54,067 bases of DNA from Bacteroidota bacterium (lineage in GTDB: Bacteria; Bacteroidota; Bacteroidia; Flavobacteriales_F; PHOS-HE28). The position numbers and the translations under genes were made by a program. This document shows positions 12,313 through 23,983 of the stretch, in pieces; the stretch's first letter is position 1, and every line of letters begins with the position of its first letter. Under the pieces are notes generated by a model. That model saw only the letters and a list, made by a program, of their open reading frames with translations. It did no database searches and was not told the DNA's origin. The stretch lies in the NCBI GenBank assembly GCA_014584605.1, contig JACTMO010000051.1:1-54067 (forward strand). Direction: 5' to 3'.

Positions 12313-12837
12313 ATGGCGCGAACCGCAAGCTTTCCACACGCGATGTTCCTCCGTCCACCGTTCCGAACCGCTGTCCGGTGTACGCCCTGGGCCCTGCTCC
12401 TGGCCGCGTCCACATGGCTCCCGCGGCCTGCGCAAGCCCAACCGGTGGTGCAGTGCAGCGCGGTGATCCAACCGGCCCACCCCGATGCTGCGGTGAAGCC
12501 GATGCTCGCGGCCGTGGTCGGATGGCTGGACGGTACCGAGGTCCATTACGACCAGCCCCGGCACACCCTTGTGTTCACGGGTACGCAGCCGGTGCAACCG
12601 GATGCCCTGGCCCAGGTGCTGGCGGCGCACGGCTTCGAACTGCTGTGGTGGAACGGCCCGCAGGGTCCGGACCCGACCCGCACCCCGAGCACCGCGAGCA
12701 CCGCGACCACCCACCCGGACTGGACGCCTGTCGATGAGGACGCCGCCCGCAAGAACGCCTGGATCGCCGCGCACCCGGAAAGGTACCGGCAGCTCACCGG
12801 CCGCACCATGCCCGCTTCGCCCCATGCCGACCAGTAA
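12313..12837 (+). CDS. Small exported protein with AWIAAHPERY tail (cassette 1)
   Basis: About 174 residues from the ATG at 12313 (alternatives 12244 and 12343). An N-terminal export signal ends near RPAQAQ. The core (roughly 40 to 110) has alternating strand-helix pattern (KPMLAAVVGWLDG, HTLVFTGTQ, DALAQVLAAHGFEL) resembling an HMA-like ferredoxin fold but without the metal-binding CxxC. A threonine/serine-rich linker follows, then a C-terminal motif NAWIAAHPERYRQLTG shared with the gene at 14846. Its 3' end overlaps the T9SS-protein gene by 14 bp, so the two are translationally coupled. Function unknown; a secretion partner or assembly factor for the next gene is speculation. Confidence 0.6.
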   Translation: MARTASFPHAMFLRPPFRTAVRCTPWALLLAASTWLPRPAQAQPVVQCSAVIQPAHPDAAVKPMLAAVVGWLDGTEVHYDQPRHTLVFTGTQPVQPDALAQVLAAHGFELLWWNGPQGPDPTRTPSTASTATTHPDWTPVDEDAARKNAWIAAHPERYRQLTGRTMPASPHADQ

Positions 12838-14770
12838 GACCCGCTCCCCCCGGTGGAGGCCCGCAGCAGGCATCGGCCGGCTCGCCCTGCTCGGCGCCGT
12901 CCTGGTCCCCGGCTCCGGGGCGTTGGCGCAGTGCGGCACCACGGTGTACGACACCGGCGGCGCCGGCGGCAACTACGGCAACAACCAGAACCTCACCTGG
13001 ACCTATTGCGCGCCACCGGGCCAGATGCTCACGCTCACCTTCACGGCCTTCAATACCGAGGCGTTCTGGGATGAGCTGTCGGTGCATAACGGTCCGACCA
13101 ACGGATCCCCGCAGCTGGGCATCTTCAGCGGCACCACGCTCCCACCACCCTTCACCTCCACGGTGGGCGGCTGCCTCACCCTGTGGTTCACGTCCGACTT
13201 CATCACCACCGCACCGGGCTGGGCGATCAACATCACCTGCGCGGTGCCCCCGCCCATGGCCGGCAACAATTGCAACACGGCCACCCTGCTCCCGGTGTTG
13301 CCCACCTGCACCATGCTGCCCTTCTCGAACATCGGGGCCACCGCCTCGGGCACGCTCCCGGCCCCCACCTGCAGCACGCCCCCCACCACCGACGTATGGT
13401 TCACCTTCACCACGGGGGCCAGCGGTCAGGTCCTCATCGACACGCAGAACGGCTCGTTGATCGACGGCGCCATGCAACTGTACAGCGGCACCTGCGCCGC
13501 GCTCACCGCCGTGGCCTGCAACGATGATGAGGACCTGCTCGGCGGCCTGCTCATGCCGCAGATCGACCGCCGCTGCGCCACGCTCAACCCGTTCACCACC
13601 TATTACATCCGTCTGTGGGGTTACGGCGGCGCCACCGGCACCTTCGGCATCTGCGTCAGCGCCCCGGCCGCCCCGGCCGCCCAGCAGGAGGACTGCACCG
13701 GCGCCTACACCATCTGCAGCGACCAGCAGATCAACAACAACACCAACTTCAGCGGCTGCGTCGCCGACCTCAACGCCAGCAACCGCGGCTGCCTGATGGG
13801 CAATGAACGCCAGGGCACCTGGTACTTCTTCTCCCCCTCGGCCTCGGGCACCGCAGCCCTCACCATCCAGCCCTCGGCCAACATCGATTACGATTTCGCC
13901 ATCTGGGGCCCGATGGCCACCATCACCTGCCCGCCCGTGGGCAACCCCGTGCGCTGTTCCTGGGCCTATCCGCCCAACGTGCCGGGATATCCGGGCGCTG
14001 GAGCCTTCCTCACCGGCCTGGGCAACGGGGCAGTGGACAATTCCGAGAACGAATTCGGCAACGGATGGGTGGCCCCCCTCAACATCATCGCGGGCCAGAT
14101 GTACATCATGTACATCGACAACTTCGACATCACCGGCCAGTCCTTCACCCTGGATTGGACCCTCACCAACGGTGCCTCACTGGACTGCACCGTGCTGCCC
14201 GTGGAACTGCTGGGGGTGCAGGCCACCCCGCAGGCGGGCGCCGTGCTGGTCTCCTGGACCACCCAGACCGAGGACGGCACCGCGCACTTCATGGTGGAGC
14301 GTTCCGCCGATGCGGAGACCTTCGCCCCCATCGGGCAGGTGCCCGCCGCCGGCCATTCGCTCAGCCATCTGGACTATCAGTTCCAAGACCGCGCACCGCT
14401 TGCCGGCACCAACTACTACCGCCTGCGCGTCGTCCACCTCGACGGCTCGGTGCAGACCTCCGCCATCACCTCCGCCCTCCACGACGGCACGGGCCAGGTG
14501 CTCCGCGCGGTGCCCAACCCGGCCACCGACCACGTGACGGTGCTGCTGCCCACCACGCACGCCTCCCAGGTGCACTACCGGCTGGCCACCGCCCACGGCA
14601 AGGTGCTCCTGCACGGAACGGCCCCCCTGGGACCGGGCGACGACCGCATCCGCCTGTCGGTGGCCACCCTGCCCGACGGCCTCTACCTGCTGCGCGTGGA
14701 GGACCTGGACGGCCAGCCCTTGGGCAGCACCCGCGTGGCCCTGAGCCGACCGCAGGCAGGCAACCGGTGA
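12824..14770 (+). CDS. T9SS-sorted multidomain surface protein with N-terminal CUB-like domain
   Basis: 648 residues. It has a signal peptide to about residue 36 (GSGALAQ); a CUB-like domain at ~37-140 (CGTTVYDTGGAGGNYGNN start, FWDELSVHNG, APGWAINITC end); and a pre-peptidase-C-like domain at ~145-290 with TTDVWFTFTTGASG and MPQIDRRC. A cysteine-containing module follows at ~290-455 (EDCTGAYTICSDQ, GTWYFFSPSASG, DYDFAIWGP), then an FN3-like segment (HFMVERSADAETF) and a type A T9SS sorting domain at the end (RAVPNPATDHVTV, LPDGLYLLRV). The start was chosen at 12824 to give the signal peptide; the frame is open further upstream. The protein is probably secreted by T9SS and attached to the cell surface. 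Paralogous to the gene at 15314 over its C-terminal ~500 residues. Confidence 0.8.
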   Translation: MPTSKTRSPRWRPAAGIGRLALLGAVLVPGSGALAQCGTTVYDTGGAGGNYGNNQNLTWTYCAPPGQMLTLTFTAFNTEAFWDELSVHNGPTNGSPQLGIFSGTTLPPPFTSTVGGCLTLWFTSDFITTAPGWAINITCAVPPPMAGNNCNTATLLPVLPTCTMLPFSNIGATASGTLPAPTCSTPPTTDVWFTFTTGASGQVLIDTQNGSLIDGAMQLYSGTCAALTAVACNDDEDLLGGLLMPQIDRRCATLNPFTTYYIRLWGYGGATGTFGICVSAPAAPAAQQEDCTGAYTICSDQQINNNTNFSGCVADLNASNRGCLMGNERQGTWYFFSPSASGTAALTIQPSANIDYDFAIWGPMATITCPPVGNPVRCSWAYPPNVPGYPGAGAFLTGLGNGAVDNSENEFGNGWVAPLNIIAGQMYIMYIDNFDITGQSFTLDWTLTNGASLDCTVLPVELLGVQATPQAGAVLVSWTTQTEDGTAHFMVERSADAETFAPIGQVPAAGHSLSHLDYQFQDRAPLAGTNYYRLRVVHLDGSVQTSAITSALHDGTGQVLRAVPNPATDHVTVLLPTTHASQVHYRLATAHGKVLLHGTAPLGPGDDRIRLSVATLPDGLYLLRVEDLDGQPLGSTRVALSRPQAGNR

Positions 14771-14801
14771 TCCGGCACGCCGTCCTCCCTGTGGGGTGAT
14801 C

Positions 14802-14817
14802 GCATCGCTTGCGATGC
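14802..14817. repeat. Perfect palindrome next to a promoter
   Basis: GCATCGC-TT-GCGATGC, 7-bp arms, ending 4 bp before the -7 element at 14822. It could be an operator, or a short hairpin ending the previous transcript (followed by TTTCTATCTT). Confidence 0.45.
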
Positions 14818-14821
14818 TTTC

Positions 14822-14829
14822 TATCTTGC
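14822..14829 (+). promoter_or_regulatory. -7 element TATCTTGC
   Basis: TAnnTTTG relative 16 bp before the ATG at 14846, immediately downstream of a palindrome. Confidence 0.45.
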
Positions 14830-14845
14830 CCCTGCCTTCTCGACC

Positions 14846-15307
14846 ATGCGCGCTGCCCTTCGCCTGCTCACCGGCCTGCTGCTGGCCCTGCCCTGCGGCC
14901 TCGCCGCCCAGAACGGCACGGCCGGCATCGACGTGTTCCTGCACTTCTTCCTGCCGGTGGACGGTGCCGGGGAGAAGGCCGTGATCGGCGTCTTGAGGGA
15001 CCTGGACGAGGCCGTGCCGCTCCATGTGGCCGCCGACCGGCAGCTGGCCAAGTTCACCCCCGAGGGCGACATCGCCCTCAACGACCTGGTCACCGCCTTG
15101 CAGCTCCAGGACCTGCCGCTGCTGGGCGTGGAGGTGATGTGGCCGGGCGGCGCCGTGTTCCATGCCATCGCCGCCTGGCCCGACGGCACCTACGGACCGG
15201 TACCGGTGAGCGGCCCTGACGACGCGCTGCGCGACGCCGCCAAACGCGCCTGGATCTCCGCCCATCCGGAGCGCTACGATGCCGTGCAACGCACCTCCGA
15301 TCCCTGA
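14846..15307 (+). CDS. Small exported protein with AWISAHPERY tail (cassette 2)
   Basis: 153 residues with a clear signal peptide (MRAALRLLTGLLLALPCGLAAQ). The core, residues ~27-100, again reads as a strand-helix-strand-strand-helix-strand pattern (FFLPVDGAGEKAVIGVLRDL, ALNDLVTALQLQDLPLLGVE), compatible with an HMA/ferredoxin-like fold lacking metal cysteines. The C-terminus RAWISAHPERYDAVQ matches the small protein at 12313. It precedes another large T9SS protein by 6 bp, the same order as in the first cassette. It has its own -7 element. I recognise no named family; it and the 12313 product are treated as a duplicated pair of unknown function. Confidence 0.65.
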   Translation: MRAALRLLTGLLLALPCGLAAQNGTAGIDVFLHFFLPVDGAGEKAVIGVLRDLDEAVPLHVAADRQLAKFTPEGDIALNDLVTALQLQDLPLLGVEVMWPGGAVFHAIAAWPDGTYGPVPVSGPDDALRDAAKRAWISAHPERYDAVQRTSDP

Positions 15308-15313
15308 GCGCCC

Positions 15314-17689
15314 ATGATGAGACCTTACACGCACCTCTGGATCGCGGCCCTCGTCCTTGCCACCGCCCAGGCCCTGCCCCGGGTGGCCCACGCCACCACC
15401 TGCGCCGGGGCCACCCTGCTCAACCCCGCCAGCCTGCCCATCACCAACCAGGCCCTGGCCTGTGGAGCGACCAACGACCTGAACGACACCAACGTGCCCG
15501 GTGTGCTCTGCGGCACCAACGACATCTCGGCCTACAAGAACGGCAACGAGGCCCTCTATACCCTGACGCCCACCACCACCGGCCTGTACAACATCAACGT
15601 CACGGGCCAGACCTGGAGCTCGGTGCAGGTGTGGGCCGGCTGCCCCACCGGCGGCGGCACCTGCATTTACGGCGACGGCAACGCCGGCAACACCACCACC
15701 ATCACCGTCACCCTCAACGCCGGCACGCAGTACTACATCTGGTTCGATACCTGGCCCGCGCCCAACAGCCCCTGCCCCGGCACCTTCAGCATCGGCCTGG
15801 CCCCGCCCCCGCCGCCCAACGACAACCCCTGCGGTGCCACGCCCCTCACCCCCGGCCTCAGCTGCGTGTACCAGGCGGCCTCCAACGCCGGCATGTCCGC
15901 CACCACGGGGGTGCCCGCGCCCACCTGTTCCTTTTATACCGGTGCCGATGTATGGTTCTCGGTGGTGGTGCCCGCCAGCGGGGTGCTCATCCTGGACTCC
16001 AACACCGGGGTGGTGACCGACGGTGGCATGGCGCTGTACACCGCCACCGCCTGCAACGGCACCTTCACCCAGGTGGCCTGCGACGACGACGGGAGCGCCA
16101 ACGGCCTGATGCCGTACATCTACGCCTCCGGGCTCACCCCGGGCACCACGGTGTACGTGCGCTTCTGGGAGTACGGAGGCGACAACAACGGCAGCTTCTC
16201 CATCTGCGCCTACACGATCCCGCCGCCCCCGCCGATGACCGGGGACAACCCCTGCGCCGCCAACCCCCTGCCGGTGCTCTCCTCCTGCATCCCGCTGACC
16301 TACTCCAACATCGGCGCCACGCCCACCGCCGGCGCTCCCGCACCGGGCTGCGGCCTTTACACCGGCGGCGACGTGTGGTTCACCTTCACGGCACCGGCCA
16401 ACGGCGTGGTGACGATCGAGACCTCCACCGGAACGATGAACAACGGCGCCATGGAGCTCTACTCCGCCCCGAGCTGTGCCGGGCCTTTCACCAGCATCCA
16501 GTGCAACGACGACGCCATCGGCCTGATGCCCCGCATCGACCGCCGCTGCAACCCGCTCACCCCGGGCCAGACCTACTACGTGCGCCTGTGGGGCTACAAC
16601 GGCCAACAGGGCTCGTTCAACATCTGCGCCTTCCAGAGCACCACCGGCACGACCATGCCCGAGGACTGCGCCGGGGGCACCACCATCTGCAACAACCAGA
16701 GCTTCAACAACAACACCAACAACACGGGCTGCACAGCCGACCTGAACGCCGGCAACCAGGGCTGCCTCTCCGCCGGGGAACGGCAGGGCACGTGGTACTA
16801 CTTCAGCCCCAGTGCCTCCGGCACCATCGGTTTCACCATCAACCCGGCCGCACCCACCGACTACGACTTCGCCGTGTGGGGTCCCCTGTCCGCCATCACC
16901 TGCCCGCCGGTGGGCGCACCGCTGCGCTGCTCGTGGGCCGCACCCACCGGTCCCACCGGCTGCGGCAATGGGGCCACCGACTTCACGGAGGGCGCCGGGG
17001 GCGACCGCTGGGTGAGCACCTTCAACGTGCTGGTCGGCCAGATCTACATCCTGTACGTGGACAACTTCAGCACCAACGGCCAGCAGTTCACCCTGGACTG
17101 GAACCTCACCAACGGGGCTTCGCTGGACTGCACGGTGCTGCCCCTGGAACTGATCGGCCTCGAGGCCTGGTCCGAAGGTCCCCAGGTGCGGGTGTCCTGG
17201 GCCACGGCCACCGAACAGGGCTCGGACCACTTCCTGGTGGAGCGGTCCTTGGACGGAGTGCGCTACAGCACGGTGGGCACCCTGCCCGCCGCCGGCCACA
17301 GCCAGGCCGAGCTCCACTACGCGTTGCTCGACCCGCAGCCGGCCGTCGGCCTGAACTACTACCGCCTGACCGAGGTGACCCAGGACGGGCACGCGACACG
17401 CACCTCCACCACCACCGTGCTGCACGGACCTCCCGGCGACCTTGGGGCGCCGTACCCCAACCCCAGCCCCGGACCCGTGAACCTCACGCTCCACCCCTCG
17501 GGCAACGGGACCCTCGAGCTGCGCCTTATCGACGCCCTGGGGCGGACCGTGCGCAAGCTGCAACAGCAGGTGACCCCGGGGACCGTGACGCTCCAGCTGG
17601 ATGCCGGGGACCTGCCTTCGGGCACCTACACCGTGCTCCTGACCGACGAACGGGGAAGTTCCCGCAGCTGGCCGCTCCTCCGGTATTGA
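15314..17689 (+). CDS. T9SS-sorted surface protein with three pre-peptidase-C-like domains
   Basis: 791 residues. After a signal peptide (to ~28) there are three ~130-residue beta-sandwich repeats of pre-peptidase C-terminal type: the first (~30-160) is divergent; the second and third carry GADVWFSVVVPASG and GGDVWFTFTAPANG with ACDDDG/QCNDDA and TVYVRFWEYGG/TYYVRLWGYNG. A cysteine module with EDCAGGTTICNNQ, GTWYYFSPSASG and DYDFAVWGP follows, then an FN3-like part (HFLVERSLDGVRY) and a type A T9SS sorting domain (APYPNPSPGPVNL, LPSGTYTVLLTD). Its C-terminal ~500 residues are paralogous to the 12824 product, but a CUB domain is replaced by extra repeats. Likely a cell-surface or secreted adhesin; no catalytic motif seen. 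Confidence 0.82.
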   Translation: MMRPYTHLWIAALVLATAQALPRVAHATTCAGATLLNPASLPITNQALACGATNDLNDTNVPGVLCGTNDISAYKNGNEALYTLTPTTTGLYNINVTGQTWSSVQVWAGCPTGGGTCIYGDGNAGNTTTITVTLNAGTQYYIWFDTWPAPNSPCPGTFSIGLAPPPPPNDNPCGATPLTPGLSCVYQAASNAGMSATTGVPAPTCSFYTGADVWFSVVVPASGVLILDSNTGVVTDGGMALYTATACNGTFTQVACDDDGSANGLMPYIYASGLTPGTTVYVRFWEYGGDNNGSFSICAYTIPPPPPMTGDNPCAANPLPVLSSCIPLTYSNIGATPTAGAPAPGCGLYTGGDVWFTFTAPANGVVTIETSTGTMNNGAMELYSAPSCAGPFTSIQCNDDAIGLMPRIDRRCNPLTPGQTYYVRLWGYNGQQGSFNICAFQSTTGTTMPEDCAGGTTICNNQSFNNNTNNTGCTADLNAGNQGCLSAGERQGTWYYFSPSASGTIGFTINPAAPTDYDFAVWGPLSAITCPPVGAPLRCSWAAPTGPTGCGNGATDFTEGAGGDRWVSTFNVLVGQIYILYVDNFSTNGQQFTLDWNLTNGASLDCTVLPLELIGLEAWSEGPQVRVSWATATEQGSDHFLVERSLDGVRYSTVGTLPAAGHSQAELHYALLDPQPAVGLNYYRLTEVTQDGHATRTSTTTVLHGPPGDLGAPYPNPSPGPVNLTLHPSGNGTLELRLIDALGRTVRKLQQQVTPGTVTLQLDAGDLPSGTYTVLLTDERGSSRSWPLLRY

Positions 17690-17916: not shown

Positions 17917-20058
17917 ATGCATCGACCCATGTTGATGACGCTTCGCTTCCGCCAGCTGTCCGTCCTGTTGCTCAGCGTTCTGCTGGCCGTCCCGGCCCTG
18001 GCACAGAACGTGGCCATCAACAGCACGGGCGCACCGCCGGTGAACGCCAACGCCCTGCTGGAACTGGATGCCGTCAACCGCGGGCTGCTCATCCCCCGGA
18101 TGACCTACAACGAGCGCCTGCTGCTGCCCGGCCCCACCGCCGGCCTGTGGGTGTACCAGACCGACAACTCCGCACCCTACGACCCCAAGAACGCCGTGGG
18201 CCTGTACTACCATGACGGCGCCACCTGGGTGCGCATGGCCACGGGCTGGGGTTGGGCCGAGGCCGGGAACACCGGCACCAACGTGGCCACGAACTTCATC
18301 GGCACCGTGGCGGGCAGCAATGACGACATGCGCATCAACACCAACGGGGTCGGCAACCCGCGCATCACCATCAGCGGTACCACGGGCTTTGTGGGCATCG
18401 GCACCACCGCGCCCACCGAGGCCCTGGACGTGAACGGGGCCATCCGCCTGTACAAGCAGGCCCCCGTGTATCCGGGCACCCTGTTCAGCCTCACCACCGC
18501 CAACGGGGTGATGCGCTACAACGACAATGTCACCGCCAACTACCACGAGGGCGGCGGGGTGCGGGCCATCCAGGGCATGAACACCACGGCCGGCAGCGCC
18601 AACGTCACCATCCCCTCCACGGCCGGCCTGGCCGCAGGCATGTACGTGAGCGGCACCGGCATCCCGGTGGGCGCCACCATCGTGAGCGTGGTGAACGCCA
18701 CCACCCTGCAGCTCAGCGCCAACTGCACGGCCACCAACCTTGGGCAGTTCCTGCGCGTGGGCCCGCTGTTCACCCGGTTGGAGAACATCGAGACGGTGGT
18801 CACCGGCCAGGACTTCACCGACTACAACATGGTGTGCGGCGCCCCCGGCCAGACCCAGGGCGGTGTGCAGAACGGCCAGACCAACGCGGTGCCCCCGCAG
18901 CGCCTGCGCGAAACCCCCTTCCCCACCAGCCAGACGGCCCAATCCACCGGCAGCCGCGTCCAGTACCTCATCCTGGGCACCGAGCTGGCCAACCCGCCGT
19001 TCAACCTCTGCGCGGGCAACATCACCCAGCTGGCCGTGACGGCCCTGGACGACGACCCGTTGGCGCCCAACCCCGGTTGCGCGCTCAACCTGAACGTGAA
19101 GGTGGCCAGCACCCCCCTGGCCTCGCTGCCCGCCGCCGGCATCGACCAGGCCACGGGCAACGGCATGAACGCCTCCCCGGTGCGTTTCAACAGCACCAAC
19201 CTGATCGTGGGTGCCGGGGACGTGGTCTTCCCGCTCAACCCGCCCTTCAACTGGAACGGCACCGACAACATCATCATCGAGATCAACTACCTGAAGGCCC
19301 CGGTGGCCGGCGTGTCCCCGCGGGTGCTGCTCACCACGGGCCTCACCTTCCAGAGCACGGTCTGGGCCTACATGCCCGGAGCCAGCGTGAACCCCGGCTC
19401 CACCTATTACACCACGCCCGGGGTCTTCCCCGCCGGCCTGCTCTGGGGCCTCAATACCACGCGCCCGGTCTTCAAGGTGTGGGGCCAGGTGAAACAGCCC
19501 ACGCCCTTCAACAACACAGGCGATTACACCCTGCTGAACAACCACGCCCTGATGGTGGGCACCCCGCAATGGGCCGCCACGGCCGGTATTTACCGCGGGC
19601 CGGGCACCGTTCGTGCGCAGGACCGCGTGCTCGACGGGGGCCTGCAACTGTCGGACCACGTGTTCGACCGCTACTTCGATGAGGCCGTACGCCCCGAGGA
19701 TGCGGCGGCCGCAGCCGACCACCGCATGGTGCCGCTCAACGACCTGGAGGGCTACCTGGCCGAACAACGCCACCTGCCCTCCATGCCCTCCCGCAACGCC
19801 TGGGAGGCCGGGCAGCATGCTTCGCTGGGTGAACTGGGCACCGGCCTGTGGCGCACCGTGGAGGAACAGGCCCTTTACATCGCCGAACTGGAACGCGACC
19901 TCCGCGTGCTGGAGGAGATGGCCTTCGCCAAGGGGCTCACGGACGACGAATGGCACCGCATGCGGCAGGACGTGGAACGCAGCCCGCGCCTGACCGATGA
20001 CCAGCGCAAGGCGCTGCTGGCCCGCCTGGAGCAGCTCAACCTCAGCACCAAGCCCTGA
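17917..20058 (+). CDS. Exported tail-fibre-like protein 1 of a tandem triplet
   Basis: 713 residues (start could also be the ATG at 17929). Signal peptide to ~30 (LLAVPALAQ). Then the Bacteroidota module NVAINSTGAPP...LLELDAVNRGLLIPRMT, which opens phage-tail-fibre-like surface proteins, and LDVNGAIRLYKQ. Residues ~224-271 hold an insert (GLAAGMYVSGTGIPVGATI) absent from the two paralogues. A shared beta-domain with FNWNGTDNIIIEI follows. The C-terminus, QLSDHVFDRYFDE, LEGYLAEQRHLPSMPS and a helical segment from ELGTGLWRTVEEQALYIAEL onward, resembles the trimerising C-terminal region of such proteins. There is no T9SS sorting domain. Probably a trimeric extracellular fibre; function unknown. 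Confidence 0.72.
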   Translation: MHRPMLMTLRFRQLSVLLLSVLLAVPALAQNVAINSTGAPPVNANALLELDAVNRGLLIPRMTYNERLLLPGPTAGLWVYQTDNSAPYDPKNAVGLYYHDGATWVRMATGWGWAEAGNTGTNVATNFIGTVAGSNDDMRINTNGVGNPRITISGTTGFVGIGTTAPTEALDVNGAIRLYKQAPVYPGTLFSLTTANGVMRYNDNVTANYHEGGGVRAIQGMNTTAGSANVTIPSTAGLAAGMYVSGTGIPVGATIVSVVNATTLQLSANCTATNLGQFLRVGPLFTRLENIETVVTGQDFTDYNMVCGAPGQTQGGVQNGQTNAVPPQRLRETPFPTSQTAQSTGSRVQYLILGTELANPPFNLCAGNITQLAVTALDDDPLAPNPGCALNLNVKVASTPLASLPAAGIDQATGNGMNASPVRFNSTNLIVGAGDVVFPLNPPFNWNGTDNIIIEINYLKAPVAGVSPRVLLTTGLTFQSTVWAYMPGASVNPGSTYYTTPGVFPAGLLWGLNTTRPVFKVWGQVKQPTPFNNTGDYTLLNNHALMVGTPQWAATAGIYRGPGTVRAQDRVLDGGLQLSDHVFDRYFDEAVRPEDAAAAADHRMVPLNDLEGYLAEQRHLPSMPSRNAWEAGQHASLGELGTGLWRTVEEQALYIAELERDLRVLEEMAFAKGLTDDEWHRMRQDVERSPRLTDDQRKALLARLEQLNLSTKP

Positions 20059-20060
20059 CC

Positions 20061-22067
20061 ATGAACCCCGTGTTTCCCCTGAACCGCATGGCCATGAGGA
20101 CCCCCCTTTCGGTACTGGCACTGGGCCTGGGCATGGGCCTGGCCGCCCAGAACAACATCGGCATCAACGTCAACGGCGCGGCCCCCAGCCCCACCGCCAT
20201 CCTGGACATCGATGCGAGCGCCCTGCCGGCCAACGCGAAAAAGGGCTTCCTGGTGCCCCGCATGACCACCGCACAACGCCCCGTCGGCGTGGACGGCATG
20301 ACCATCTACCAGACCGACGGCGTGGCCGGGTACTATTACTACAACAGCACCCTCGCGGCCTGGGTGCGTGTCCCGCCGGGTTCCGCCGCCTGGGGCCTCA
20401 CGGGCAACGACCTGGTGAACCCGGTGAACGACTACCTGGGCACCACCGATGCCACCGAGCTCAACTTCCGCACCAACAACATCGAACGCATGGTGGTGGA
20501 GGCCGGCGGACGGGTGGCCATGGGCGCCCCCACCCCGCTGCCCGCCGCCCAGCAATTGCTGGAAGTGAGCGGTGCCGTGCGCCTCACCGGCACCACGGCG
20601 GCCTCCAACATCGGCACCATCCGCTGGAACGCCACCGACCTGTGGCATGAGGGGTACATGGGACCGGCCACCGGGTGGCGCAAGCTGCCCAACGACTACC
20701 AGGTCTTCGGCCCCGTGGCCTTTCAGCACCATGCCGAGGCCACCTGCGGCGCGGGCACCTCCGAGATCGCCAACGGGGTTCCCAACGCCCCGCTGCCGCC
20801 GGCCTGCCCGGGCTGCACCGTGGCCCAGTGGAGCAACGCCGCCACCGTCACCCCGTACATCAACCAGAACGCCGTCGCCCAGCGGGTCCGCAAGCAGATG
20901 ATGTTCCTGGTGAACGAGCTGAACGTGGAGCTCGCCCAGCTGAACGGCAACACCGGCTGGACCGAGGGCCTCTGCCCGGGACAGTCCATCGACGAGATCG
21001 CCTTTTACATCGGCCAGGGCGGCCTGGCGAAGGCCTGGGCCTGGCAGGTGGCCGTGTTCCACGCCCCGCCGGGGTTGAACGACCTTACCGGGGGCTTCGT
21101 GGCCAATACCGACCCGGCGGCCGGCTGCGGCTTCAACGCACCGGCCACCCAGCTCCGCCCCATCGCCGGCGCAGGCGCTTGGGACGTCTTTGCGCTCAGC
21201 ACGCCGTTCACTTGGGACGGCGCGCGGAACATCATCGTGGAAATTTCCATGCAAGGCTCACCGCTCGGCGTCGCCCACAACGTGCCCGTGAAGGTGAGCA
21301 CCGCCCCCAACCTGTCCTACACCCGGTACACCGCCATCGTGAACGGGACGTGCGGCAACGTGTCCGCGGCCTGCTCGGGCATCCTGTCCGGCAGCGGCAT
21401 GGACATTGCCTGCGGTCTCGGTGGCATCAGCGCCCTGCGCCCGGTGATCCGCTTCGGGGGCACGGTGACCGATACGCCGGGCCCCATCGTGAGCGGCAAC
21501 AGCAACTACGTGGTGTACGACGGGGGCTTCCTGGTGGAGAGCACCCCCGGATGGCGCCTGTGGGTGAACCCGCCGGACCCCTACCGTTCCTTCAAAGGGC
21601 CCGGGTCCATCCACGCCGAGAAGGGCGTTTACGACAACGGCGTTCGTCTGAACGACCACGTGTTCGACCGGCATTTCGACGGCCGCGTGGCCCCCGGCGA
21701 TGCCGAAGCCACAGGCAGCCTGCGCACCCGCTCCATCGAGGAGATGGCCGAGTTCACCCGCCTGAACCGCCACCTGCCCACCATGAAGGGACGCGACGCC
21801 TGGGAGCGTGAGCGCGGTTTCTCCTTCGGCGACCTCACCAACCAGTTGTGGACCACCGCCGAGACGCACGCCCTCTACCTCACCGAGCTGAACCGCCAGT
21901 CCCATCTGCTGGAAGTGCTCAGCACGGAGCGACCGCTGCGCCCCGAGGAGCTGGCGCCCATGACCTCCGCCGTGAAGAAGCTCCCTGAACTGACCGATGC
22001 CCAGAAGGCCCGCCTGGTGAACGACCTGGGCGCACGCACCGCGACCGAACCCCGAACCACCCCTTGA
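20061..22067 (+). CDS. Exported tail-fibre-like protein 2 of a tandem triplet
   Basis: 668 residues. The start at 20061 lies 2 bp after the previous stop; the in-frame ATG at 20091 (MRTPLSV) would leave a cleaner signal peptide ending LGMGLAAQ. N-terminal module NNIGINVNGAAPSPTAILDI then KKGFLVPRMTTAQRP; LEVSGAVRLTGT and IRWNATDLWHEGY; a cysteine-bearing middle (CPGCTVAQWSN, CGLGGIS) with the shared FTWDGARNIIVEI motif; and a C-terminal VRLNDHVFDRHFDG, LNRHLPTMKGRDAWERE and coiled-coil LWTTAETHALYLTELNRQ. Paralogue of its two neighbours, and its stop overlaps the next gene's alternative TTG start. No T9SS domain; surface fibre role inferred. Confidence 0.72.
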   Translation: MNPVFPLNRMAMRTPLSVLALGLGMGLAAQNNIGINVNGAAPSPTAILDIDASALPANAKKGFLVPRMTTAQRPVGVDGMTIYQTDGVAGYYYYNSTLAAWVRVPPGSAAWGLTGNDLVNPVNDYLGTTDATELNFRTNNIERMVVEAGGRVAMGAPTPLPAAQQLLEVSGAVRLTGTTAASNIGTIRWNATDLWHEGYMGPATGWRKLPNDYQVFGPVAFQHHAEATCGAGTSEIANGVPNAPLPPACPGCTVAQWSNAATVTPYINQNAVAQRVRKQMMFLVNELNVELAQLNGNTGWTEGLCPGQSIDEIAFYIGQGGLAKAWAWQVAVFHAPPGLNDLTGGFVANTDPAAGCGFNAPATQLRPIAGAGAWDVFALSTPFTWDGARNIIVEISMQGSPLGVAHNVPVKVSTAPNLSYTRYTAIVNGTCGNVSAACSGILSGSGMDIACGLGGISALRPVIRFGGTVTDTPGPIVSGNSNYVVYDGGFLVESTPGWRLWVNPPDPYRSFKGPGSIHAEKGVYDNGVRLNDHVFDRHFDGRVAPGDAEATGSLRTRSIEEMAEFTRLNRHLPTMKGRDAWERERGFSFGDLTNQLWTTAETHALYLTELNRQSHLLEVLSTERPLRPEELAPMTSAVKKLPELTDAQKARLVNDLGARTATEPRTTP

Positions 22068-22069
22068 AC

Positions 22070-23983
22070 ATGCGCCAGCGTTCGACCCGTCCTGCGACCC
22101 CGCTGTTCCGTGCGGCCCTGCTGGGCATGGCGCTCACCGCCCTGGTGGGCGTGCATGCCCAGATCGGCATCAACAACACCGGAGCCGCCCCCAGCACCAA
22201 CGCCCTGCTGGACCTGAACCAGGTGGGCCGCGCCTTCATGGCCCCCCGCATGACCGATGCCCAGCGCATCGCGCTGGCCACCGCCGAGGGGCTCATGGTC
22301 TACCAGAACAACAGCACCCCCACGGCCCCCAAGGGCTACTGGTACTACGACACCGACCTGCTGCCCTTGCCGGGCTGGGTCTTCGTGTCCGACGTAGCCT
22401 CCTGGCAGCTCGGGGGCAATACCGGCACCAACGCCGCCACGGATTTCGTGGGTACGGTGGACAATGTGGACCTGGCCTTCCGCACCAACGGGGTGGAGCG
22501 CATGCGGATCACCGCCGGCGCGCTCTCCACGGGCGGCCTGGTGGGCATCAACGTGCCGGCGACCTACACCGAACAACTGGAGGTGAACGGCGCCCTGCGT
22601 GTCGGTACCGCCTCGGCCAGCAACACCGAGGGCAGCATCCGCCTGAACGCCACCACCAACGCCCACGAGGGCAACATCGACAACTCGGCCACCTGGTACC
22701 AGCTGGAGAACGCCTTCCTGCTGGAGAAGAACCGGATCTACCTGAGCAACCCGGTGCCCGCCTGCGCCTACCAGACCGGCTGGCCCACCACCGGTGGCCC
22801 GATCATCGACAACAGCACCTTCGGCAACACCACGATCAACACCACGATCGAAACCCCGTACAGCCGCTTCTGGGAGGATGGCCGCCACCAGTACCTCTAC
22901 CTGGCCAGCGACCTGGCCGCCCTGAACATCTGCCCCAACACCAACATCACCGGGGCGGCCTTCAGCGCCACCAGCGGGGGCGGGCAGGCCATCACCAATA
23001 CCCAGTTGAGCATGAAGAACACCCCGCTGGCCGCCCTGGCCACGCTGGACGTGGGCGGCGGCTGGGTGGTCTGCCACACGGCGGCGAGCTTCACGCCGGC
23101 GGTCGGCTGGAACGCGCACAACTTCAACGTCTCGCCCTTCCAGTGGAACGGCGCCAGCAACCTCCTGGTGGAGTTCTGCTTCGACCTGAACAACTGGACG
23201 GGCAACGTGGGGGTGAACGCGGAGAACACGAACTACTCGGCGCTGTACGGCATTTACTGCGACGCCTGCGGCCACCTGTTCACGCCCGGCAGCGGTACCT
23301 GCTACTTCGCCTCCTGCCCCTCCACAGGTCCGCAGAACACCCCGGGGGTGCTCTGCACCGGATACGGCCACACCCCGGGCTGCCAATTGCTGCCCACCTC
23401 CTCGCTCACCACCTGCGACGGCACCTTCCAATACATCGGCCAGACCGGCTCGGCCAACCGGCGCCCCCTGCTGCGCCTCAACGCCATGGTCAACTCCATC
23501 GTGCCGGTGCTCACCCAAGGCGATTTCATCTACAGCCCCACCGCCGTGATGGTGGAGAAGACCCCCGGATGGGCCACCAGCGGGGTGTCGCCCAACCAGA
23601 AGTTCAAGGGGCCCGGTACCTTGAGCGCCGAGATCGGGGTCTGGGGCGGAGGCCTGTTGCTGAGCGACCACGTGTTCGACACGTACTACGACGGCAAGGC
23701 CCGTGCGGAGGATGGCGCGCGCGGTGCCGGGTACAGCCTGATGCCCATCGACGAGATGGTGAACTACGTGGAGCGTGAGCGCCACCTGCCCTCCATCCCC
23801 GGCCGCAGCGACTGGCAGATGCAGGGGCCCTTCAGCCTGGACGACCTCAACACCCGGCTGTGGGTCACCGTGGAAGAGCAGGCCCTGTACATCAAGGAGC
23901 TCAACGAGCGGATGAACCTGCTGCGCCAGCACCTGCTGCGCACCCGACTGGCCACCCCGGCCCCGGGTGCACAGGCCCGCTGA
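22070..23983 (+). CDS. Exported tail-fibre-like protein 3 of a tandem triplet
   Basis: 637 residues from the ATG at 22070, 2 bp after the preceding stop (a TTG at 22064 is also in frame). Signal peptide ends GVHAQ. Then IGINNTGAAPSTNALLDLN with APRMTDAQRIAL, LEVNGALRVGTAS, and a middle part with a shared FQWNGASNLLVEF motif. A cysteine-rich stretch runs at ~400-450 (CDACGHLF, CYFASCPSTG), unlike the other two. The C-terminus repeats the plan LLLSDHVFDTYYDG, VERERHLPSIPGRSDW and LWVTVEEQALYIKELNERM. The last base of its stop codon is the first base of the next small gene's ATG (TGATG). Same class as its two upstream neighbours. Confidence 0.72.
   Translation: MRQRSTRPATPLFRAALLGMALTALVGVHAQIGINNTGAAPSTNALLDLNQVGRAFMAPRMTDAQRIALATAEGLMVYQNNSTPTAPKGYWYYDTDLLPLPGWVFVSDVASWQLGGNTGTNAATDFVGTVDNVDLAFRTNGVERMRITAGALSTGGLVGINVPATYTEQLEVNGALRVGTASASNTEGSIRLNATTNAHEGNIDNSATWYQLENAFLLEKNRIYLSNPVPACAYQTGWPTTGGPIIDNSTFGNTTINTTIETPYSRFWEDGRHQYLYLASDLAALNICPNTNITGAAFSATSGGGQAITNTQLSMKNTPLAALATLDVGGGWVVCHTAASFTPAVGWNAHNFNVSPFQWNGASNLLVEFCFDLNNWTGNVGVNAENTNYSALYGIYCDACGHLFTPGSGTCYFASCPSTGPQNTPGVLCTGYGHTPGCQLLPTSSLTTCDGTFQYIGQTGSANRRPLLRLNAMVNSIVPVLTQGDFIYSPTAVMVEKTPGWATSGVSPNQKFKGPGTLSAEIGVWGGGLLLSDHVFDTYYDGKARAEDGARGAGYSLMPIDEMVNYVERERHLPSIPGRSDWQMQGPFSLDDLNTRLWVTVEEQALYIKELNERMNLLRQHLLRTRLATPAPGAQAR

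Follow-up and report, generated by a model that had tools for sequence, protein, structure and literature searches.

Two large proteins with features of T9SS cargo are each encoded directly behind a small exported protein in the window, the stretch of 54,067 nucleotides analysed here, which raises the question of whether the two products of such a pair act together, and in what way. The initial annotation had proposed a conserved pair, duplicated as a unit, with cooperating products, for example a chaperone and its client or a two-part surface complex. Functional coupling of the two products of each pair is judged far more probable than the specific mechanism favoured below, a periplasmic escort.

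The features of the two cassettes are collected in Table 1. Both gene pairs have the same order and the tight spacing first annotated, with coordinates verified: small A and large A overlap by 14 bp, and small B is followed by large B after 6 bp. Small A has a second ATG at 12343, and a Sec-like signal peptide is obtained with either start. Terminator-like sites in the region number five, compared with 1.5 expected from shuffled sequences (consensus match only), and the hairpin between the cassettes hints, by consensus alone, that these may be separate transcription units.

Table 1. Features of cassettes A and B, with positions in the window.
Feature	Position	Strand	Description and basis
Small A	12313..12837	+	Exported; signal peptide, predicted HMA-like domain, C-terminal helical module; dN/dS 0.29
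C-terminal module core, small A (WIAAHPERY)	12760..12786	+	Whole-genome pattern scan
Large A	12824..14770	+	Putative T9SS cargo: CUB, GBD_T9SS_assoc, Por_Secre_tail
CUB domain, large A residues 50-136	12971..13231	+	Pfam, E 1.3e-7
T9SS sorting tail, large A residues 564-628	14513..14707	+	Pfam, 23.2 bits on whole protein, 27.0 bits on C-terminal 130 aa, cut-off 27
Terminator-like hairpin between cassettes	14802..14817	+	Weak, consensus match only
Small B	14846..15307	+	Exported; predicted ferredoxin-like (HMA-like) domain, C-terminal helices; AF2 model; dN/dS 0.45
C-terminal module core, small B (WISAHPERY)	15251..15277	+	Whole-genome pattern scan
Large B	15314..17689	+	Putative T9SS cargo: GBD/PPC-like repeats, Por_Secre_tail
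T9SS sorting tail, large B residues 714-782	17453..17659	+	Pfam, 36.5 bits, cut-off 27

The cassettes are flanked by a class I/II aminotransferase gene on one side and by a run of genes for 639-713-aa proteins on the other. The aminotransferase gene lies behind a DUF1573 gene (both by Pfam), and valS, recognized by eye, is divergent. Two adjacent copies of the DUF1573-like gene are present near the aminotransferase in L067, L068, and L070-L072 (by eye), and one in the window. The run at 17917-23983 comprises three tandem exported proteins alike in layout, in which a Pfam scan gave no match; the first ones also come after cassettes in several genomes of the genus.

Large A and large B, as first noted, are paralogs, which align over 492 aa at 49% identity (E 5e-147), and the reported difference between their N-terminal parts is also found, CUB being present in A and absent from B, which has an additional GBD/PPC-like part with further sandwiches. 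Large partners have an N-terminal Sec signal peptide (home-made heuristic and reading), and A and B are predicted to end in a T9SS sorting domain (PF18962 for type A, PF13585 for type B), which is clear in B and at threshold in A, where the whole protein scores below the Pfam cut-off and the C-terminal part alone reaches it. Compared with the nearest relative, the large genes have dN/dS of 0.23 (A) and 0.25 (B).

The small proteins had been linked by a C-terminal motif, and BLASTP indeed finds a match limited to this motif (E 4e-6). The likeness extends further in a family profile, which places both in one family over nearly the whole mature length (E 5.5e-36 and 1.3e-31). Members of this genus family consist of a predicted cysteine-less HMA/Atx1-like domain and a C-terminal helical module with the core K-x-A-W-I-x-A-[HN]-P-x-x-Y. 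The pattern W-I-x-x-[HN]-P-E-x-Y is present in the 3.7-Mb genome solely at small A and small B, and the reversed pattern has no match there. That the motif is a known domain was rejected, as all Pfam and NCBIfam models stayed under their curated cut-offs in the 12 small proteins scanned; the sorting domain (PF18962/TIGR04183) had no match in these 12 either, and the best match of the motif profile to PDB sequences had E 0.85. Two motif proteins of family f13 (L204 and L206), with weak motif matches (E 0.0018 and 0.0054), have signal peptides that look lipoprotein-like by eye.

The same genome contains a third cassette and a lone cargo. The 46-sequence profile gives a third, weak match on C56 (E 0.0056), where the small protein encoded is exported, HMA-like, and about 120 residues long and lacks the C-terminal module (L032:2288-4425, G000). 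Its stop codon and the start codon of a large protein of 592 aa share a 4-bp ATGA, and this large protein matches large B across its C-terminal half (E 8.8e-17), with a Pfam sorting-domain score below the cut-off. No small gene precedes the gene on C18 for a cargo-like protein of 619 aa, whose N-terminus is similar and whose sorting-domain score is likewise below the cut-off. The partner is thus not obligatory for such proteins, and not every cargo of this kind can require an escort.

Duplication confined to the window was rejected, since cassettes recur in other genus genomes. The small family was found by profile in 32 of 45 genus genomes (19 of the 30 more complete ones), with no match in 13. 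Fetched genomes have one to four cassettes each with the gene order kept, and L072 has up to three in tandem at one site. Of the 48 small ORFs examined (from 57 distinct ones, nine found only in short 3-kb loci being left out), 45 are followed within 210 bp by the start of a large-family ORF. The remaining three are L217, where an exported ORF comes immediately after the small one (read by hand), one in L218 that lies 84 bp from the contig end, and an 88-aa piece at L213:3447 with a large-family ORF 887 bp away.

The two families also diverge together. A mirror-tree comparison of 41 pairs from 19 genomes gave a Spearman correlation of 0.307, compared with a mean of 0.109 for within-genome partner shuffles, none of which reached the observed value in 2000 trials; five of the 46 pairs were excluded, one for a distance of more than 300 bp between its genes and four because their small-profile E exceeded 1e-12. 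This is a moderate correlation, and in only 14 of the 41 pairs do the small and the large protein point to the same nearest neighbour in another genome. This co-divergence indicates that cassettes were multiplied, and not single genes. Together with the synteny within the genus and the occurrence of the pair in 15 other families, which answers the search of other genomes that had been recommended, it supports the idea that a conserved pair was duplicated as one unit.

Outside the genus, the genus-family profile was run over 395 class genomes, and most of its matches were to the C-terminal module, in small proteins that are dissimilar elsewhere. A module-only profile found it in 48 of the 395 genomes and 24 of 196 genera. 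Beyond the genus, 39 genomes from 15 families contributed 47 loci, one of them taken from the genus-family search. The motif profile had no match in a second, separate set of 395 phylum genomes; the genomes listed were of the same class and an empty result of this search says little, so that nothing follows for the phylum as a whole. At 42 of the 47 loci a large exported gene lies directly downstream by an automatic rule (same strand, gap of at most 120 bp, at least 170 aa, signal-peptide-like), whereas among the 146 other small ORFs in these regions the rule applies to 30 (Fisher P 1.5e-17); the ORF map behind this control is crude and includes some spurious ORFs, and the control proportion may therefore be too low. 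Chance adjacency was rejected on these counts, and motif proteins lying mostly away from T9SS genes, named in advance as the contrary observation, were not what the survey found. The other loci, listed by hand after inspection or read by hand, are three with the large gene directly upstream (L163, L165, and L191), one of poor sequence where the large gene overlaps the small one (L176), and one with an extra small gene in between (L187). In L188, L200, L201, L204, and L205 the core motif falls short of domain E 0.01, yet a large exported gene adjoins. In the cassettes of family f3 (L160, L169, and similar loci), the cassette is divergent from a yidC-like gene at about 200-330 bp in several genomes, and in L160 this gene matches Pfam 60KD_IMP and YidC_periplas.

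A small gene next to its client gene, 1:1, is the arrangement looked for in a dedicated secretion chaperone, and the pairs show it in the genus and across the class. The Sec signal, the lack of a sorting domain, and the constant T9SS-cargo neighbour point to a periplasmic helper, and the small partner is tentatively read as an escort or chaperone in the periplasm that is dedicated to one T9SS substrate and docks through a shared module, a reading whose probability is put just short of even. Against it stand the lone cargo on C18, the occurrence of the pair with both types of sorting domain, the variation of the N-terminal domains of the large partners, the position of the small gene after the large one at the three loci named above, and the unspecific fold match of the small B model.

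Gene spacing could also be explained by a small gene that serves mainly as a translational leader, coupling translation to the large gene, with a product that matters little. Genes of the class pairs overlap or nearly touch (median gap 20 bp), as such a leader would require. The small genes, compared with the nearest relative, have dN/dS of 0.29 (A) and 0.45 (B), and this purifying selection indicates real proteins; W, P, K, and Y are conserved across families, the predicted folds are confident, and the order is reversed at three loci, all of which make a mere leader very improbable.

The shortest large partners have a few hundred residues, many being truncated at contig ends, and the longest has 4374. 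Among 26 readable C-termini, two of them from the window, 20 match Por_Secre_tail (PF18962) at E 0.01 (15 of 19 and 5 of 7 in the two batches) and three match CHU_C at the same threshold; L226, which ends inside a repeat array, probably by an assembly or frame break, is counted as a miss. Pairs occur with both type A and type B sorting domains, so that a single common receptor such as PorV is no explanation. N-terminal domains in the 44 partners scanned include P-domain (13), GBD_T9SS_assoc (9), GEVED (8), PPC (6), and CUB (2), and a related sandwich domain was found in 68 of 87 partners by an iterative profile built on partners only.

Such cargos, with matches to CUB, P-domain, GBD, PKD, and SprB-repeat, look adhesin-like, and the strongest rival to the escort is a two-part surface complex, in which the small protein would exit through the translocon bound to its cargo and be displayed with it as an adhesin or enzyme subunit. 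The 1:1 pairing and co-divergence fit this, and copies of the module, repeated in some families, could be multivalent binding sites. The small proteins lack a sorting domain, however, L204 and L206 are lipoprotein-like by signal peptide (by eye), and one surface module would have to serve different types of cargo. Co-display is considered rather unlikely.

The module itself has the class consensus L-P-G-[FY]-P-x-[YF]-V-x-T-G-N-P-x-x-D-x-x-x-Y-x-x-A-K-x-x-W-I-x-x-N-P-x-x-Y, in which P, G, D, Y, K, and W are invariant across 20 class sequences. AF2 models it in L209, a canonical member from the genus, as two helices with a break at proline, preceded by a low-confidence linker, and the small B model has helices 105-118 and 120-129 at the same position. 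Small proteins have from one to about five copies, depending on family. For example, those of L168 and L174 have two full-length copies each, and strings of a short core, EK-x-A-W-I-x-A-N-P-x-x-Y, are found in L195 (7587-8258; five copies by profile) and L192 (8044-8400; two by profile, three by pattern). A docking element would be expected to be short, repeated, and independent of the domain next to it, and the module, which has these properties, may act as one. The small proteins of L108, L110, and L121 have a second common tail behind the first module, at their C-terminal ends, roughly F/Y-x-x-[MF]-x-x-E-K-[QR]-x-x-I-x-x-x-P-[DE]-x-Y-[FI]-I.

A shared module joined to a variable, partner-specific part would also suit a modifier or quality-control factor, not a chaperone, that governs cleavage of the cargo CTD, anchoring, or turnover, or senses export. 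Pairing with both CTD types is in keeping with this role. The small proteins have no detected catalytic family or metal ligands, and a modifier of this kind seems quite improbable.

The N-terminal domain of the genus proteins is predicted to be ferredoxin-like, of HMA type. The sequence profile of the genus family finds Synechocystis Atx1 weakly (E 0.0026). The L209 model (mean pLDDT 87.5, pTM 0.54) matches yeast Atx1 with Foldseek E 4.8e-4 and VIA Z 11.7 (rmsd 1.7, 70 residues), and all 50 structure matches listed for it were HMA-fold entries, judged by titles and reading. For the small B model (pLDDT 88.8, pTM 0.82) the match is not specific to HMA, whose Z of about 7 is equalled by ACT and Mesd/Boca folds, and no Foldseek match falls below E 0.001. 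In the two modelled proteins, these fold comparisons extend mainly over residues 3-81 and 1-76. PF00403 matches two of 46 aligned members at E up to 1 (best 0.0033), below its gathering score, and has no match in the small proteins of the window. In class-level small proteins the HMA profile does not detect the domain; the N-terminal parts of L172, L173, and L177 look ferredoxin-like by eye, also without detection. From these comparisons, the common core across the class appears to be the C-terminal module, not the N-terminal domain.

The fold match to Atx1/CopZ raises the possibility of metal delivery, in which a relative of HMA copper chaperones would load metal into the cargo. CxxC is absent from the first 40 residues, the metal-loop region, in all 46 aligned members, which makes a metallochaperone role unlikely, and the HMA domain is undetected in class-level relatives. 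Metal chaperoning was rejected as the function on the missing CxxC, and loading of metal is hardly credible for these proteins. L213:2479-3141, outside the 46-member alignment, has CAPC near the place of the metal loop. Compared with HMA metallochaperones of the Atx1-CopZ type (PF00403), the genus family has the same predicted beta-alpha-beta-beta-alpha-beta fold; it differs in being without CxxC, exported, extended by a C-terminal helical module, and, in nearly all members, below Pfam detection.

In the escort reading, each cassette would pair a T9SS cargo with a small periplasmic escort of its own. Made first, the escort would be carried across the inner membrane by Sec and, having no T9SS sorting domain, would probably remain in the periplasm. 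There it may bind its partner, a long array of beta-sandwiches, non-covalently, and keep the bound cargo export-competent or steer it to the translocon. The fast-evolving N-terminal part, HMA-like without metal ligands in the genus and of other sequence elsewhere, would give cargo specificity, and the conserved module would dock onto a common feature, either the T9SS machinery or something that the cargos share.

The sequence family of the small partner appears undescribed, as searches of the open-licence PMC literature listed no description of such a small T9SS partner and no Pfam or NCBIfam model covers it. Two sources place the secretion information of T9SS substrates in the C-terminal domain and describe paired partners only for type B (PMC12618676, PMC10202324). 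According to one of these, the way in which effectors engage the T9SS in the periplasm is unknown (PMC10202324). If the escort reading is true, a small partner for mostly type A cargo would add a step to the T9SS pathway. One short module across many families would also provide a sequence handle for finding such cargos.

Among known systems, Mesd/Boca shares a ferredoxin-like core with the small B model (Z 7.0, 2.5 A, 75 residues, tied with HMA), a likeness of fold only; Z under 8 may reflect no more than a common arrangement. Mesd/Boca is an ER chaperone of LRP receptors, dedicated to large extracellular multi-domain proteins, and, unlike small B, is eukaryotic. SprF-like shuttles are outer-membrane beta-barrels, and the models of the small partners are of alpha/beta type with 132 and 140 residues and no Pfam match. 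Neither these shuttles nor SkpA matches the small partner in fold, position, or dedication.

SkpA, a periplasmic chaperone homolog, takes part in T9SS transport within an extended translocon; unlike the small partners, it is common machinery, homologous to Skp, encoded in its own operon, and not dedicated to a cargo (PMC10994853). In Flavobacterium johnsoniae, the type B substrate SprB has a cognate PorP/SprF-like shuttle, SprF, such shuttles are encoded downstream of the cargo gene, and type A tails are all said to use PorV (PMC12618676). The partner found here differs from SprF in being small, soluble-looking, and mostly encoded upstream, with most cargos having type A tails, and resembles the SprB/SprF system in that a T9SS cargo gene adjoins its own dedicated secretion partner and the pairs differ between cargos.
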